Positions 3,794 to 56,555 of a stretch of 62,538 bases of DNA are shown piece after piece (position 1 is the stretch's first letter; every line of letters starts with the position of its first letter). The stretch spans positions 1 to 62,538 of the forward strand of contig JABABL010000004.1 of the NCBI GenBank assembly GCA_014238225.1, written 5' to 3'. Both the position numbers and the translations under genes were made by a program. This stretch comes from Mycoplasmatales bacterium (GTDB lineage Bacteria; Bacillota_I; Bacilli_A; Mycoplasmatales; JABAAY01). The notes below the pieces were generated by a model. It saw only the letters and a program-made list of their open reading frames with translations, was not told the DNA's origin and searched no databases.

Positions 3794-5114
3794 CCCTTTA
3801 AAAACTTTCGCCATACATACTCTAGGTTGTAAAGTAAACACATATGAGAGCGATTACATTCACCAAAGTTTAGAACAACAGGGTCTAAAATCAGTGTCCT
3901 TTTCTGATAATGCGGATGTTTACATAATAAATACTTGCAGCGTCACAAATACAGCTGAAAGCAAAAGCAGAAATTATATTAAGCGTGCTCGTAAACGAAA
4001 TCCTAATGCTATAGTTTGTGTAATTGGTTGTTATAGTCAAATTAAAGCACAGGAAATTAAGAAAAGCAAATTAGCAGATATTATTTTAGGTCAAAACAAA
4101 TACGATTTATGAAAGTTTATAAGACAATTTTCTAAAAATCCTAAAACCATAATAGAAATAGAGAAGTTATACCAACGCGATGATAAGAAAAAAACTGAAT
4201 TTCAAGAAAAAATTGTTTCTGCGTTTGTGACAAGGACTAGAGCATTCATTAAAATTCAAGAAGGTTGTAACAATTTTTGCACGTTTTGTATCATTCCTTA
4301 CACACGAGGAAAAATGAAAAGCAAACCTAAAGAATTAATTTTTAAAGAAATAAATAACGTTGTAGAAAAAGGGTGCAAAGAGGTTGTTCTAACAGGAATT
4401 CACACAGGCGGTTATGGTGAGGACTTAGATGATTACACTTTTTCCAAATTATTATGGGATATCGAAGCTAATTGTAAAAATTTGCAACGTTTACGTATTT
4501 CATCAATTGAAATTACTCAGATTGATGATTTATTCGTTGAATTCCTTAAGAATAGTAAGATTTTAGTTGACCATCTTCATATACCAATTCAAAGCGGAAG
4601 CGAAAGAATTCTTCAAAAAATGAGAAGACATTACAATAAAAAGGAGTACCTAGACACAATTAACAAAATAAGAGAAATCAAACCATTAATCAGTATTACA
4701 ACAGATGCAATTGTTGGATTTCCTACTGAAACAGACAAAGAATTTTCCGAATATTTAGATTTTGTAAGACTTATTAATTTTTCAGAAATGCATGTTTTTC
4801 CATACAGCAAAAAAGACCGAACCCCTGCAGCTTTTATGGAACAGGTATCGGAAGAAACTAAAAAAACAAGAGTTAATAAAATGTTGAGACTAAACGATGA
4901 ATTAGCAGAGGCATACATAAATAAGAACATGAATAAAAATCTTGATATTTTATTTGAAAACGGAAAAGAAGTTGGGAAGTATGTTGGATATACAACCAAC
5001 TATATTAAAATAGTTGTGAGTAGCGAAGAAAATTTAGTAAATCAAATTAGGAAAGTTAAAATTACTGCTCCTCACTACCCCATATCTGAAGGAGAATTAG
5101 TTTATGGCATTTAA
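3786..5114 (+). CDS. mtaB: tRNA t6A37 methylthiotransferase MtaB
   Basis: A radical-SAM enzyme of 442 residues that adds a methylthio group to t6A37 of ANN-decoding tRNAs. The N-terminal [4Fe-4S] domain has Cys15 in H-T-L-G-C-K-V-N, the MtaB rather than MiaB version, plus Cys in N-T-C-S-V-T and I-G-C-Y-S. The radical-SAM triad is Cys161, Cys165 and Cys168, followed by I-I-P-Y-T-R-G. A TRAM-like domain ends the protein. One TGA-encoded Trp lies at 4110-4112. The gene overlaps both neighbours. Confidence 0.93.
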
Positions 5115-6951
5115 AAGAAAACCAGCAATAAAAAAACGCAAACCAGATACAATACTTGTTGGTGGTGGGCTTACTAGTTTAATTTCTGGTGCTTTTCTAG
5201 CGTGTCGCGGCTTTAAAGTGATAATTTTTGAAAAAAATAGTTCTGTTGGCGGAATGCTTGCATCAAGAAATAAAGTGATCAATCAAAAAAAATACAGTAT
5301 TCCTGGTGCTATTCCTTTGCTGCCTGCGTTGGAACACCCCACCATGAAGAGTATTTGAGAATTCACTAAGATTGGCTCAGTTGTAAAATTTCAAAAAGCT
5401 AAACAAATAACCGTTTTGAAAAACAACACTTCTGAAAAGCTTATCCCTAATGATTGAGTTATGCTTCAAAAAAGACTAAAACAGAAATTCCCTAAAAGTT
5501 CTGATCTAATAGGTAAATTTTTTAATTCTTTGAAAAAAGTTTATGCTGACTTATCTAGAAGTTTTTATTTTCACGAAGACGAAAAATATATAAATGGTTT
5601 CGAGTTTCTTAAGAATTTTTTCAAAAATGAAAGCCTTGCTAATGAAATTATTCTAATATCTAATGCTTTTGATTTTGAATCCGAAAAATGTAATAGTCGT
5701 GAATTAATGTATAATTTGGCACTTTACTTGATAGGCGGTGTATATGAAATATTGGGTTCTCCTCACCAAATTGTTGAAAAACTTTCTGGAATTATCGAAG
5801 CGTATGAAGGAGATATTTATACAAAAACTCCCGTGGAAAAAATTATGTGAAAAAATAACCTGGTAACAGGTGTAGTCGCAAATAATAAAGTATGAAGAGC
5901 GAAAAAATATTTAATTAACGCCCCTCTTCCTTATGTAGTAAAAAAATTAGTTCAAGTGAAGTCCGTTAAATTGAGCAATTATGAGAAGTTATTAGAAGAA
6001 AATGATGGGACTCTTTTTACTTTAACAATGAACTTTTACACATCTCAAAACTGAAGGAAGTTCGGATTTTATAAACCAAATTTCGTGGTGAACCCTTCGG
6101 AAAATTTTATTAAACAACATTCATGTTTGCAAGCAATATCTGGTAAAACTAAAACAATTAAAATAACAAATAACGAATTAATTTATGATTCTGGCGATAG
6201 AACCAGAAAGCCATTAAGTGTACATATTCAAACCACTGAAAAACAATTAGCGGATTTAAAAATAAAGAAAATGGATTCGTTTGCTGACCAAATTTTTGAC
6301 TATTTAAAAACCATTTGACCAATGCTTAAGACCATTCAATATCAGACAATTGTCGAAGGATTGCAATATCAGAAAAAAACATTAAATTCTTTATCTGGTA
6401 GTGATTACGGATTTGCCAATGATTCAAAAGTTTTTTGAGGAAATTATACATCTCAAACACCACTATTAAATCTGTATGTTGGTTCTAGATATGGATACCC
6501 TGGACCAGGAATTGCAAGTGCTTTTTTTGGTGGTGTGTTTGTTTCAAATTTAATGCTAATAAAAATCAATAAATCAAGTCAGAAACTATATAAACCAGAT
6601 TATCTTGACGGAGAAAATTATTTAAATTACATGATTAATGTTCACAGAACTATTCCTAAGAAATTACATGGTAAAAAATTAGGGATTACTTTCGATAAAG
6701 AGAACAGTTTTATTATTTCTTTTAATAAGGATAACACTTGTGTTTTGAAAAAATCTGAATTTGATGGAGCTCTAAATGAAGAGTTTTTTTGCTATGCAAC
6801 ATTGGCTAATTTTAAATCGTTATATACACACCGATTATCCATGTTTCTAGCTACTTTCCAAAATAAAATTCGTTTAAAAGGTAAGCTAAAAACATTTAAA
6901 ATAGCATTGAGGACATTAGGTTGAAATCGAACAAGAAAGGAATATTATTAA
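5104..6951 (+). CDS. CrtI/retinol-saturase-like FAD-dependent oxidoreductase
   Basis: A protein of 615 residues. The N-terminus holds a dinucleotide-binding fold, with G-G-G-L-T-S at residues 20-25, an acidic residue at 43 and G-G at 49-50. Near residue 460 the C-terminal FAD contact region reads G-Y-P-G-P-G-I-A-S. This arrangement fits the phytoene desaturase/amine oxidase superfamily (COG1233-like). The substrate cannot be told from sequence; an isoprenoid is plausible because the MEP pathway is present, but this is inference. It overlaps mtaB by 11 bases. Several TGA codons are read as Trp, so it only appears broken under the standard code. Confidence 0.75.
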
Positions 6952-9290: not shown

Positions 9291-11336
9291 GTGTTAGAGA
9301 AGGAATTAAATTTTATTCAAACAGAAGAATCAGAATGTGGAATTGTTTGTATTTTACATTTACATTACTTATTCTTTCAACGAAATATACCAAAATCACA
9401 AATTAAAAGTTTTGAGCATGTTCCTGAAAAGGGTCTAAATCTCAATAGTTTAAGTTTTATTGGTAGACAATTAGGTGTTTCAATTAGTTGATTTAAAGTA
9501 GATTATGATGCATTTCGAAAGAGAAAGCTAAAACATTCTATTGTTTTAATAAAAAAGAAAAATGTTTTTCACTATGTTATAGTCAATAAAATTAAACATA
9601 ACACCGTTTTTTTTGTAGATCCAAACTACACAGAAATACAAACTATGTCATCGAAAGATTTTGAAAAAATTTTTCGAAATACAGTTGGAATAACTAGAAA
9701 GTCAAACTTCAATTTATTCTACATAAATCAACTTAGCGGAATCCAAACCAAGAGTTTTGCAGATGTTTTCAAGCAATTTTTTAATTATCGTGTGTATATA
9801 GTTTTTGTTTTTTTATCATCTTTTATAGTATTTCTCTTAGGATTGTTTTCCGGTTTATATTTGCAAATAGTATTAAACACAATCATCCCAAATAATTTAA
9901 CTACATTGTTATTAAGTGTGTCAGGAATTTTCATATTTACCACTATTTATAAAAATATTTTTGATTTTCTTATGAAACTGTATTTGTTTAAAATTCAATC
10001 CTTAATTGAAGGAGATTTTGAATATTTTTTTCAACAACAAATATTTTTAAAAACCAGTGTGTTTATTCAGAATACGGAGCCAAATCTTTACTTTCAACGA
10101 TTAGGAAACATTGGAGAATTAATTACTAATGAATTACAAAAAAGAATTTTTGTTCCCATAAATTTAATCATAGGAGTGATTTCAGTAGTTATTATTTTCA
10201 CAATAAATATTTATCTTGCTGCTGTGTCATTATTTTTTGTAGTCATAATTTTATTACTAATAAATCTGTTTATAAATAAAATAGTGACATCAAAGAAGAA
10301 CGTATTAAAAATTACTAATAAAAAAAGATCCCTTCTAACTAAAGTGTTTTTCAATAACGCCTCGATTAAAGGGAAAAATGATAGTGATAAAATTGCTGAT
10401 CAACATTCTACAATACTGAAAAAATATATTTCTACAGTAACTAAAGATCATTGAATTAATTCATTTTTTGTCTTCAACAATTCCTTGTTTTCGGGAGTAT
10501 TGAGTGTTCTAATTGTTTTTCTTGGAACAGTATTTATTATCGCTAACCAATTTACTGTGGGTTCTTTATTCTTTTTCACTACAATTTTTGGTATTTTTCA
10601 ATCATCTTCCTCTCAACTCTTCAATTTTCTTGTCAATATAAAAAAAAATAAAGTTAACTTAGAGTTAATAAATGACTTTCTTAACTCAACAACAGTAGAA
10701 TTTTACAAGGGAGTTAGTGAAAAAGTTAATTTTCATAAAATACTATTTAAAAATATTTCTTACTCCTACGAACATAGTAAAAAAATTCTCAACGGACTTA
10801 ATGGTGAAATAACTTCAAACTTATTAATACAAGGAGGAAATGGAACTGGTAAATCAACATTTTGTAAAATAATTGCAGGTATTCATACGCTTCAAAATGG
10901 AGAATTATTAATTGATGACATTTCAATTAGTGATATTTCTCACTATTATCTAAGAGAAAATATTTTATATATTTCTTCCAATTCTATAATTATAGAAAAC
11001 ACAATTTTTGATGCGATAAAAGACTTTCTGTTCACGTTGCAAGAAACAGAAAGAAGTTTCTTGTTATCGTTGTTACAAGAGATGAAACTAAACTTAAAAC
11101 ACGACATTGAATGAGATGGGAGCAACTTATCTGAGGGTCAAAAACAATTTATTAATTGTCTACCTATTTTTAATACAAAAAGCAAAATTTTAGTTTTAGA
11201 TGAGGCATTCTCCAATATTAGCATTCTGATAGTGAGAAAAATAATATCACATTTGTCAGCCAGGGGAAAAGTGATAGTTTACGCAACTCACGAGAAAGGT
11301 GCAGAGGATTTATTTCAGAAGCAATTATTATTATAA
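9291..11336 (+). CDS. C39 peptidase-containing ABC exporter (leader-cleaving peptide exporter)
   Basis: A protein of 681 residues with the order C39 peptidase, membrane domain, ATPase, as in exporters that cut double-glycine leaders and secrete the peptide. The peptidase has the oxyanion Gln10, catalytic Cys16 in E-C-G, His94 in F-H-Y-V and Asp110 in D-P-N. Hydrophobic helices span roughly residues 165-430. In the ATPase, Walker A is G-G-N-G-T-G-K-S-T (515-523), the signature is L-S-E-G-Q (613-617), Walker B is L-V-L-D-E-A (634-639) and an H-loop follows. The usual Q-loop Gln seems replaced by Ser. An in-frame stop just upstream fixes the GTG as the earliest start. Its stop overlaps the next gene by one base. 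Confidence 0.88.
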
Positions 11337-11722
11337 TGAAAAAGAATTTTAATAAAACAATTTGAATTTTTACGTCTGTTGCGAGTTCATTTGCAATAAT
11401 TTTTAGTCTATTTCTTATTTTGCTTCCGATTGAAGTTACCACAACAAAAACAATTCAAGTTACATCTCGAAATGATGTGGTGCTTTTAATTCCGGCTAAT
11501 GAATTACAAAATTACGATGATAAGAAAACCCTTAGCGGAAGTATTGATAATACTGAATTGCTTTTCAATATATTTAGCATAAGTATTAGTGAAAGCAATC
11601 CTTCAATTTATGAATTAGTCTTAACAACTACTAGTGACTTAAATTTCATTCCCGGTACAGTTTTACCTTTTAACATAGTGCTATCGAGTGTTAAATTGTG
11701 AGAATATTTATTTTTACTATAA
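11336..11722 (+). CDS. Miniature HlyD-like exporter accessory protein (probable)
   Basis: A protein of 128 residues with one N-terminal membrane helix (about 11-30) and a beta-rich outer part. The C-terminal stretch, residues about 104-126 (P-G-T-V-L-P-F then W-E-Y-L-F), resembles the end of the HlyD membrane-fusion beta-barrel, where P-G-M precedes a beta strand and an x-Y-L-x motif. The coiled-coil hairpin and lipoyl domains are missing. The start overlaps the exporter stop (TAATG), so the two are co-translated. The assignment rests on pattern resemblance only. Confidence 0.5.
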
Positions 11723-11729
11723 TAACTTT

Positions 11730-12206
11730 GTGAATAGAATTATTATTGTCAATAACGAATCAAAGACTACCATCAAAGAACAAGATGTAAAAAATCTTAT
11801 TGAAGGTTTTGGAAATTATCAACTAAAACAAAAAGACTTTTGATTCACACTACATTTCGTAAAAGCAAAAAATATACAAAAAATTAACAAGGAATATCGC
11901 AACAAAAACCAGGTTACAGATGTGATCTCATTTAATACAACCGACATAGAGAACGAAATACTTGCAAAACATAATCAAAAAAAAATCAGTGTTTCTGGTG
12001 AAATTTTTATTTGCGTAAAAAAAGCGAAGGAAAATTCTTTAAAAATAGGACAAAGTTTACAAGAAGAATTGAATTTTTTAATGATGCATGGGTTTTTGCA
12101 TATAATTGGTTATAATCATTTAGAGTCAAAAGAAGAAAAAATAATGATTAAAACTCAAAGAAAATTAAGAAAAAAAATGAAGATGCAGGGTAAATGAGTT
12201 TCCTAG
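11730..12206 (+). CDS. ybeY: Endoribonuclease YbeY
   Basis: A zinc-dependent RNase for 16S rRNA 3' maturation and ribosome quality control. A protein of 158 residues. The signature H-G-F-L-H-I-I-G-Y-N-H supplies His120, His124 and His130. I chose GTG 11730; the N-terminal part contains a TGA-encoded Trp. The gene overlaps dgkA by 13 bases, and the order ybeY-dgkA-era matches that of many Firmicutes. Confidence 0.93.
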
Positions 12207-12574
12207 GGAAGATATTTAGAAAATTTGCATGAGCACTTAGTGGATTCATAACCGTATTAAAAGAAGAAAATAGTTTTATTTTCTATGTTATCGTTGGTAT
12301 AGGACTTTTAATATTATCTATCATAGGTTCCGTGTTTTGAAACATGCAAGGTTATGAATGAGCAATTGTGTGGGGTGTTTATGGAACTGTTGTTGCATTT
12401 GAATTCATAAATACACTTGTAGAAAATCTCGTAGACATCATTTCCTTTGAATACAATATAAGCGCCAGAAAAATTAAGGATATCGGAGCAGCTGCTACAT
12501 TGTTTAATGCTCTTGTGGCGACGACAGTGATTTTAATCGTTTTTATTTCTTTAATTGTTGGAACTTATTCTTAG
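12194..12574 (+). CDS. dgkA: Diacylglycerol/undecaprenol kinase
   Basis: A small integral membrane kinase of 126 residues with three predicted helices. The family stretch E-F-I-N-T-L-V-E-N-L-V-D, followed by K-D-I-G-A-A-A, is present near residues 75-105. In Gram-positive relatives this enzyme phosphorylates undecaprenol; in an organism presumably without a wall, either a lipid carrier or diacylglycerol could be the substrate. Translationally coupled to ybeY. Confidence 0.88.
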
Positions 12575-12589
12575 AATGGATTTAAATTT

Positions 12590-13435
12590 TTGAATGCAAA
12601 AATAGCACTTGTAGGAAAGACCAATAGTGGAAAATCAACATTTATAAATAAATTTTGTGAAGACAGTGTTTCAATTGTTACAGCAAGAAGAAATACCACT
12701 AAGGATTTAATTAGTTGTAAAATTGAAAACAACGGGAACACAATATTCTTGTTTGACACTGCAGGATTACAGCACAAAAGAACTGTTAAAAGCAAAAAAA
12801 TGAGTGCATCTTATACAATCGCTCTTAATGAAGCCGATTATGTGTTTTATTTTATTAGTTTAAACGAAAAAATAAGAAGTATAGACCATGAAACCATCAG
12901 TGATATATTAACCACTTTTAAAGAAAGAGAGGTTTATATTATTTTAACCAAAACAGACTTAATTAAAAAAAATGAAATTGTTCCAATAATAGGGTCATTA
13001 AATCAAAAATATAAATTAACTAATTTTTTCCCCATTTCTGTTTTAAAAAATGACAATTTAAATGTATTAAAAAACAACATGTGAAAAATTAGTTTTCAAA
13101 AATCTAAATATTCTTCTATTGAAGAACATTTGTGAAATAGAGATTTGTTATTCCAAATAAAGGAAATCACAAGAAAGCAGATCATCTTATTTACACATAA
13201 AGAAATTCCCGAAATTATAACTATTGATGTTCATGTTGTAAATAAGGCAAGTTCCTCAATGGTTCTGCATTTAACATTGACAGTTAATAAGGAATCACAG
13301 AAAAAAATTATAATTGGATCACAAGGTTCAAAAATTAAGCAAATAATGTCTGCCACAAGGAAAGAACTGGAAAATATTATTTCCAAAAAAATCTTTATCG
13401 AAAGCTTTGTGAAAATTAAGAAAACAAAACATTAA
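12590..13435 (+). CDS. era: GTPase Era
   Basis: A ribosome-assembly GTPase binding the 3' end of 16S rRNA. A protein of 281 residues: the G domain has G-K-T-N-S-G-K-S-T (9-17), D-T-A-G and T-K-T-D; the C-terminal KH domain has the loop I-G-S-Q-G-S-K-I-K. TTG 12590 is the only sensible start, because the nearby ATG at 12576 is in another frame and soon closes. Three TGA codons encode Trp in the linker and KH domain. Confidence 0.92.
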
Positions 13436-55348: not shown

Positions 55349-55648
55349 TTATTTAGAAACTTCCGTTATTTTAACTCTCGTGTGAAGCTGCTTATGACCT
55401 TGTTTTTTATGATAATTTTTTTTTGGTTTATATTTAAAAACAATGATTTTTTTGTCTTTGCCTTGTTTTTCAACGATTCCTTTAACCTTCGCTTTTTTTA
55501 CATAAGGTCTGCCGAAAATACCATCAACATATACCACATTCTCAAAAACAACTTCATCACCTGGTTTGCTTTCCAATTTTTCAAAATAAATAATTTTTTC
55601 AGGTTCTACTCAGTACTGTTTTCCACAAAGTTCAATTATTGCTTTCAT
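55349..55648 (-). CDS. rplU: 50S ribosomal protein L21
   Basis: A protein of 99 residues starting M-K-A-I-I-E-L-C-G-K-Q-Y-W with the Trp as TGA, and ending with the L21 signature (Y-K-P-K-K-N-Y, K-Q-G-H-K-Q, T-R-V-K-I). TATCAT about 8 bases before the ATG may be its -10 box. First gene of the L21-Prp-L27-Obg operon. Confidence 0.95.
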
Positions 55649-55708: not shown

Positions 55709-55972
55709 CTAGGTATAGTAGTATCCAGGTGTGTAATTAACGTTATTGTTAATCTCTTTTGGTTTTTCACCTGACATGGATCATTCAGCAGAAAAACCAC
55801 CGGGTAATGTTATCTTTGCTTCTTCTGCTGATCACAACTGTTTGGCAGTAGGAATAGCAATGATTGAGAATTCTACAACACCTATTAAGGAATTTATAAA
55901 TCCACCAACATCAAATGCTCCACCGTAAATTTCCATCATTTCTTCGTCATTAATTTTTTTTCAATTTTCCAT
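55709..55972 (-). CDS. Double-glycine leader peptide (candidate secreted bacteriocin-like peptide)
   Basis: A protein of 87 residues, visible only with TGA as Trp (Trp4, Trp47, Trp64). The first 18 residues end I-N-D-E-E-M-M-E-I-Y-G-G, matching the C39 leader pattern: hydrophobic at -12, -7 and -4, acidic at -10 to -8, Gly-Gly at -2/-1. The predicted mature part (69 residues) has a hydrophobic helix with G-G and G-V-V (about 22-42) and a Tyr-rich end; it has no Cys. GGAGGAG lies 4 bases before the ATG. No immunity gene is adjacent. Neighbours are greA and rplU. The function, killing, signalling or adhesion, is not known. Confidence 0.8.
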
Positions 55973-55976
55973 ATAA

Positions 55977-55983
55977 CTCCTCC
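55977..55983 (-). promoter_or_regulatory. Strong Shine-Dalgarno of the GG peptide gene
   Basis: GGAGGAG on the minus strand, 4 bases before the ATG. It is the best match to the anti-Shine-Dalgarno I see in the window. A candidate promoter upstream is TTGATT (56019-56024) with TAATTT (55998-56003), spacer 15. Confidence 0.65.
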
Positions 55984-56024: not shown

Positions 56025-56495
56025 CTACCCAATGAACATAATTTTTACAGAGTAAGGTTTATTAATGCCTTTGATATTGACAATATCCCCAACGCTGTGT
56101 GTTAAAAGAGCTCTTGCGAGTGGAGATTCATTTGAAATCCTTGTTTGCTTTTCGGTTAAATTAACTTCTAGTGGTCCTACAATCAATATTTCTCTTTCTA
56201 TGTTAGTCTTCGTGTTTAAGTACTTAACTTTGCTACCCAATCTAATAACAGAATTGTCTTTTTCACTTTCTATTATTATTGAATGAGCCAAAATATTTTC
56301 TAGTTCTTTAATTTGTGACTCAATTTTCGCCTGATTATTTCTTGCTGCATCGTAATCAGCATTTTCACTTAAATCTCCCTGTTCACGCGCTGTAGTAAGT
56401 TCTTCAATGACTCTAGGTCTTTGAACGTTTATTAAATCTTTTAAGGTTTCTCTTTTTTCTGCTTGGCCTTGTTTTGTTAAATATATTTTTCTCAT
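56025..56495 (-). CDS. greA: Transcription elongation factor GreA
   Basis: Rescues backtracked RNA polymerase by stimulating transcript cleavage. A protein of 156 residues: an N-terminal coiled coil with the acidic tip G-D-L-S-E-N-A-D-Y-D (residues about 40-50) and a C-terminal FKBP-like domain. ATG 56495 is set by AAGGAG 4 bases upstream; a longer frame to 56531 is unlikely. Confidence 0.95.
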   Translation of the reverse strand: MRKIYLTKQGQAEKRETLKDLINVQRPRVIEELTTAREQGDLSENADYDAARNNQAKIESQIKELENILAHSIIIESEKDNSVIRLGSKVKYLNTKTNIEREILIVGPLEVNLTEKQTRISNESPLARALLTHSVGDIVNIKGINKPYSVKIMFIG

Positions 56496-56516
56496 AGTGC
56501 TCCTTGGACATTTCTT

Positions 56517-56522
56517 ATTATA
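56517..56522 (-). promoter_or_regulatory. -10 box of greA
   Basis: TATAAT on the minus strand. The start site would lie near 56510, giving a 15-base leader that contains AAGGAG (56500-56505). Unlike most operon heads here, greA has a leader. Confidence 0.5.
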
Positions 56523-56555
56523 AAGAAACATTTTATTTATGTGTTTATTAAATGG

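Follow-up and report, generated by a model that had tools for sequence, protein, structure and literature searches.

Which substrate does a leader-cutting exporter serve when the neighbouring genes offer none? The question is raised by a contig of a Mycoplasmatales bacterium (NCBI GenBank assembly GCA_014238225.1, contig JABABL010000004.1), of which a stretch of 62,538 nucleotides, here called the window, was analysed. It carries a two-gene system, in which an exporter combining a C39 peptidase with an ATP-binding cassette (ABC) transporter is followed by a small partner protein, and, at a distance, a gene for a short peptide whose leader ends in two glycines (GG). The C39 exporters of mycoplasmas have been said to lack any apparent candidate GG peptide, and for want of such a peptide the exporter of the minimal cell was tentatively given a role in lipoyl import (Breuer et al. 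2019, PMC6609329, citing Dirix et al. 2004 for the former). Our analysis argues, with a probability of about 0.7, that the window exporter belongs to the peptidase-containing ABC transporters and that the GG-leader peptide encoded at 55712-55972 is its main cargo. In two large mollicute families nearly all genomes with C39 also have a relative of this peptide, which directly answers the statement that the substrate is missing.

The exporter is intact

The exporter gene and its peptidase domain are located as follows.

9291-11336, + strand: C39-peptidase ABC exporter, 681 residues, GTG start, genetic code 4
9318-9692, + strand: C39 peptidase domain (Gln10, Cys16, His94, Asp110)

The original prediction had described, from the window alone, a leader-cutting exporter with every C39 catalytic residue and complete ABC motifs, and this description holds in full. 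Among 19 homologues Gln10, Cys16 and His94 are invariant and Asp110 is at least 90% conserved; the ATPase has its Walker A (GGNGTGKST), signature (LSEGQ), Walker B (ILVLDE) and H-loop (His667), and a decayed exporter is ruled out by these intact catalytic and ATPase motifs. Pfam recognises Peptidase_C39 (E = 5e-19) and ABC_tran (E = 4e-17); ABC_membrane stays under the Pfam cut-off, and still the profile of exporter homologues matches PCAT1 over its full length. Searched against solved structures, that profile ranks PCAT1 (E = 1e-99) and ComA (E = 1e-93) at the top, whereas phmmer searches of the PDB matched nothing with the single exporter sequence (E up to 1e-30), nor with its C39 part alone (E up to 1e-3). 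With a C39 domain bearing Gln, Cys, His and Asp, and a membrane domain fused to an intact ATPase, the protein is of the peptidase-containing type. It also matches NCBIfam NF045998 (Mbov_0121 family) over nearly its full length, at 348.8 bits against a curated cut-off of 500.

A candidate cargo and its family

The peptide gene lies on the opposite strand and comprises the following parts.

55709-55972, - strand: GG-leader peptide gene, 87 residues plus stop, ATG at 55972, coding part 55712-55972
55919-55972, - strand: leader MENWKKINDEEMMEIYGG, 18 residues, with the predicted cut after GG
55712-55918, - strand: predicted mature peptide, 69 residues, with a hydrophobic helix, an ITLPGGFSAEW hairpin and a C-terminal YYYT (low-confidence model)
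55977-55983, - strand: ribosome-binding site GGAGGAG of the peptide gene

The gene is real, and its start is the ATG, preceded by GGAGGAG, rather than an upstream TTG. The structure model has a predicted local distance difference test score (pLDDT) of 65. Compared with the sister genome G008, the ratio of nonsynonymous to synonymous substitution rates (dN/dS) is 0.029 for the peptide, lower than for the exporter (0.067) and the partner (0.104), and the peptide is by this measure under strong purifying selection.

Searches with the window peptide gave at first remote relatives in other families, and profiles then found such a gene, usually a single one, in the majority of genomes. In the main mycoplasma family (f8) the peptide occurs in 130 of 135 genomes (profile, E ≤ 1e-3), in family f6 in 51 of 60 (with a profile of its own), and in the M. 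genitalium group (f3) in 87 of 95 at E ≤ 0.1, the kinship between f3 and f8 covering the leader and the start of the helix only. Members are built alike, with a GG-terminated leader, a hydrophobic stretch rich in glycine and a G-[ES]-[IV]-K ... W hairpin, and many have an aromatic C-terminus. In profile-profile comparison the f6 and f8 peptides align over 63 columns, hairpin included (E = 1.9e-13), while the f3 profile aligns over 35 columns of leader and helix start. A control with reversed sequences gave, among 12,771 segments, top two matches at E of 0.004 and 0.03, both in loci that had been fetched for the peptide. Two of 37 f3 genomes searched exceed the cut-off of NF045747 (MPN313 family, without a named function).

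Exporter and peptide are inherited together

The presence of the C39 domain, scored by PF03412, was counted against that of the peptide. Among the 60 genomes of f6, 49 have both the C39 domain and the peptide, 1 the C39 domain only, 2 the peptide only and 8 neither (Fisher p = 1.5e-7); among the 135 of f8 the corresponding numbers are 129, 4, 1 and 1. Both are absent from all 10 genomes of f11, and in f5 exporter and peptide are linked in one region, about 10 kb apart. The peptide and the C39 domain are lost together. That the exporter may serve the peptide at 55709, as had been proposed, is supported by this co-occurrence and by the coinciding losses; the situation named beforehand as speaking against it, an exporter in relatives without a GG-leader peptide, is rare (1 of 50 in f6, 4 of 133 in f8). 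The pairing supports the partnership of exporter and peptide as evolutionary, not biochemical, evidence.

Protease and cut site seem to change together

Protease and peptide were compared in the 72 genomes for which both genes had been read. Peptides with GG nearly always go with a protease that has C-G and H-Y or H-F at its catalytic cysteine and histidine; in a clade of 22 genomes with PG, VG, TG, AG, PS or AA at the cut site, the protease mostly has C-S together with H-M, H-I or H-L. C-S also occurs in G294, an independent genome with an AG site. Among the 49 exporter columns that the GG group conserves, the non-GG group has lost 8: residues 17 and 95, the neighbours of Cys16 and His94, one in the start region, and five in the membrane and ATPase parts. 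On this comparison, the C39 protease seems to have changed together with the site that it cuts.

Several observations weigh against the partnership or blur it. The peptide gene and the exporter stand 44 kb apart in the window. The peptide was matched in just one of five C39-bearing genomes of f9 and in none of f4, and the p values of the pairing are optimistic because the genomes are related. The co-variation has exceptions in both directions, since G010 and G032 combine an AG site with a normal protease while G132, G257 and G194 have an altered residue 17 and keep GG; in a tree-corrected test there were at most four cut-site changes, two of them on well-supported branches, and the test had no power, since the co-variation amounts to just two joint events, a large one and a small one. 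No standard C39 protease is known to cut the PG or VG sites found in several clades. In G239 (L182) Phe replaces the catalytic Cys of an otherwise intact exporter frame, the peptide of this genome having a PG site, either a true loss or a sequencing error, and in Mycoplasma struthionis (L163, L174) several stops break the exporter while the AG-site peptide is intact, either a recent loss or a poor assembly.

A small partner protein

The exporter is followed by one further gene.

11336-11722, + strand: small partner, 128 residues, ATG start, one membrane helix and a barrel like that of membrane-fusion proteins, MAG1140-like

Its ATG overlaps the exporter stop codon by one base, and the two-gene exporter that had been proposed is confirmed at 9291-11336 and 11336-11722. 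The earlier view that the C-terminus resembles HlyD is supported, with reservations. The structure prediction of the partner alone, suggested then as a check, has a transmembrane helix at residues 7-29, followed by six strands, and ends in a short helix (AlphaFold, pLDDT 89). Most of its neighbours in the PDB are barrels of membrane-fusion proteins, among them BesA (Z 7.7), AcrA (7.3), MexA (7.2) and MacA (7.1). HlyD of the HlyB/D complex (chain 49-466) aligns along the full length of the model (119 residues, Z 6.2) with its middle missing. Set against this, the unrelated barrels of Sen1 and F1-ATPase score close to the fusion proteins, all Z values are below 8, and comparison with Pfam and with the fusion proteins of the PDB gave no link at the sequence level; the model therefore makes a reduced HlyD-like protein likely, not proved.

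The partner matches NF045999 (MAG1140 family) at 25.9 bits, under the curated cut-off of 35 and in the same position after the exporter, and 23 of 30 partner homologues match this family. In four further mollicute families a small protein ends 340-391 bases past the exporter in the loci where both were read, while genera g6, g21 and g30 have no partner and a shorter exporter (596-612 residues) at the same place. Mollicutes have no cell wall, and with none to span, the partner could have lost its hairpin; wall loss may thus have allowed the reduction, and the partner hints at how fusion-protein partners can shrink after the wall is gone.

Genomic setting and history of the two loci

Conserved neighbours of the exporter and the peptide in the window are the following.

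11742-12206, + strand: ybeY
12194-12574, + strand: diacylglycerol kinase (dgk)
12590-13435, + strand: era GTPase
55349-55648, - strand: rplU, conserved downstream neighbour of the peptide
56025-56531, - strand: greA, upstream neighbour of the peptide

In genomes of f10, f6 and f3, as in the window, the exporter precedes ybeY-(dgk)-era, and a genome that we read from its gene order as M. genitalium also has the exporter-partner-ybeY-era locus; by gene order, MG390, MG389 and MG388 are presumably its exporter, partner and ybeY. The idea that the pair is peculiar to the window genome was rejected, as the pair recurs in other mollicute families. No GG peptide was found beside the exporter in the loci read. 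In 30 of 60 loci the peptide stands immediately before rplU on the same strand, and it follows greA closely both in the window and in some f6 genomes. Outside the order, shorter relatives of 53-65 residues with GG, PG or VG sites occur in other families of Bacilli (L287-L302), mostly in the order valS-peptide-radC-rplU-ysxB-rpmA-obgE (valS, radC and ysxB recognised by eye); within 6 kb around these class-level loci there is no exporter, and no wider C39 search was made there.

Both loci look old, vertically inherited and constrained, and the two-gene exporter is ancestral in mollicutes. The two-gene exporter, as first described, is real, but the original prediction missed its ancestral status, its naming by NCBI and the fact that the peptide forms a family of its own. 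The exporter and partner pair is already named in Mycoplasma (NF045998, NF045999), with no cargo given, and both proteins are of known kinds, the system being set apart by the size of the partner, its cargo and its place in the genome; what is new is the cargo family, previously undescribed and unnamed, and its ancestral, co-inherited character.

Some side observations concern single loci. In f5 (L262, L263) the exporter is split in two frames (524 + 210 and 141 + 547 residues). Tandem pairs of GG-leader genes, like two-peptide systems, occur in the f3 genera g26, g32 and g45 (L257; G264:C12:70548-71050; G272, G216, G062, G074, G205). In L065 (G018) the peptide core runs into a RadC-like frame, an apparent fusion or a decayed remnant. 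Two genes before the window exporter, at 5104-6951, a protein like FAD-dependent amine oxidases is encoded, with deoC and a phosphoglucomutase-type gene between them, which is unusual in a small mollicute genome.

The peptide of M. genitalium

The GG peptide of the M. genitalium-like genome adjoins mraZ, which is MG_221 in M. genitalium (PMC8475190); by this numbering the peptide appears to be MG220 (RrlA). A review identifies mg220 as RrlA, listed as 'transmembrane', and reports that RrlA and RrlB are required for the activation of sigma-20, work in a feed-forward loop and are required for recombination (PMC9262362). A pheromone would look like a secreted or membrane-bound peptide that sustains its own regulon, and by analogy these data would fit one; an intracellular small membrane protein fits them too. 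A signalling role of the peptide is a lead, and the peptide family offers a possible molecular reading of the reported link between RrlA and recombination.

Proposed mechanism and alternative explanations

In the mechanism that we propose, the leader helix would dock onto the C39 domain, Cys16 would cleave after the glycine pair, and a dimer of the exporter would pump out the hydrophobic mature peptide. The partner may sit on the outer face of the exporter as a membrane-anchored barrel, without the long hairpin that spans the cell wall in relatives that have one. Since both loci are vertical and ancestral in mollicutes, the exported peptide most likely serves the producing population, being membrane-active or signalling, and would not be a mobile bacteriocin.

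A bacteriocin carried by the same exporter, which inserts into the membranes of related mollicutes and kills them while the producer protects itself, would share the GG leader and the hydrophobic glycine-rich core of class II bacteriocins, and weak matches to Bacteriocin_IIc (best E = 8.8e-4) and to cerein and lactococcin-G leaders agree with it. Vertical inheritance of exporter and peptide, about one copy per genome and slow change nevertheless argue against this role, and we regard it as unlikely: the gene sits in a conserved housekeeping locus and is under strong purifying selection, no recurrent immunity-like neighbour was seen among neighbours that were not exhaustively annotated and that in half the loci are rplU and rpmA, and no tested member scores above the cut-off of a bacteriocin family in Pfam or NCBIfam. 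Action on an animal or insect host, by adhesion, membrane damage or an immune effect, is suggested by the hydrophobic character of the peptides and by their named bearers, seven species of animal-associated mycoplasmas as judged from the names. However, the shorter relatives in Bacilli families with larger genomes share the rplU context, and slow change in about one copy per genome is unlike a host-facing arms race, so that such a role is very unlikely.

The exporter might also have another job, for instance the import of lipoyl peptides, which was proposed for the minimal cell when no GG peptide was at hand (PMC6609329), and the peptide would then be an uncut small membrane protein, in keeping with the listing of RrlA as transmembrane (PMC9262362), with sites that lack GG and with G239, which lacks the catalytic Cys. 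Yet the GG peptide whose absence prompted the import idea does exist, and its loss together with C39, the conserved leader pattern and the co-variation of catalytic flank and cut site would all be unexpected for an uncut protein, which makes this explanation improbable. Export of the peptide as the main cargo of the C39 exporter remains the reading that we prefer.

Comparison with known systems

PCAT1 of Clostridium thermocellum and ComA of Streptococcus have the domain order, the catalytic residues and the GG-leader cargo of the window exporter; unlike theirs, its cargo gene is not adjacent, and the exporter locus is conserved beside ybeY-era. NF045998 and NF045999 describe the same two adjacent genes, neither naming a cargo, although the window proteins score beneath both cut-offs. 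HlyD-type fusion proteins, superposed on the partner model, share its membrane helix, barrel and C-terminal end, whereas their coiled-coil hairpin and lipoyl parts have no counterpart in the 128 residues; ComB, the partner of ComA, is a full-length fusion protein. MG220 (RrlA)/NF045747 is likewise small, with a GG leader, a hydrophobic segment and the same exporter-partner-ybeY-era locus in the genome, but its mature part has no hairpin motif and its likeness to the window family is seen in leader and helix start only. A functional parallel is ComC-ComAB of streptococci, which also combines a GG-leader peptide, a C39 ABC exporter and a fusion-protein partner, and to which the RrlA feed-forward loop is comparable; the analogy is one of working only, and no receptor is known for the mollicute peptide. 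It is on this analogy, and on the hint from the feed-forward role reported for MG220/RrlA, that we suggest, tentatively and as a somewhat doubtful possibility, that mollicutes down to near-minimal genomes may keep an ancestral ComC-ComAB-like signalling system, in which one GG peptide, carried out by the C39 exporter with its miniature partner, would switch on states of recombination or gene transfer in a subset of cells.
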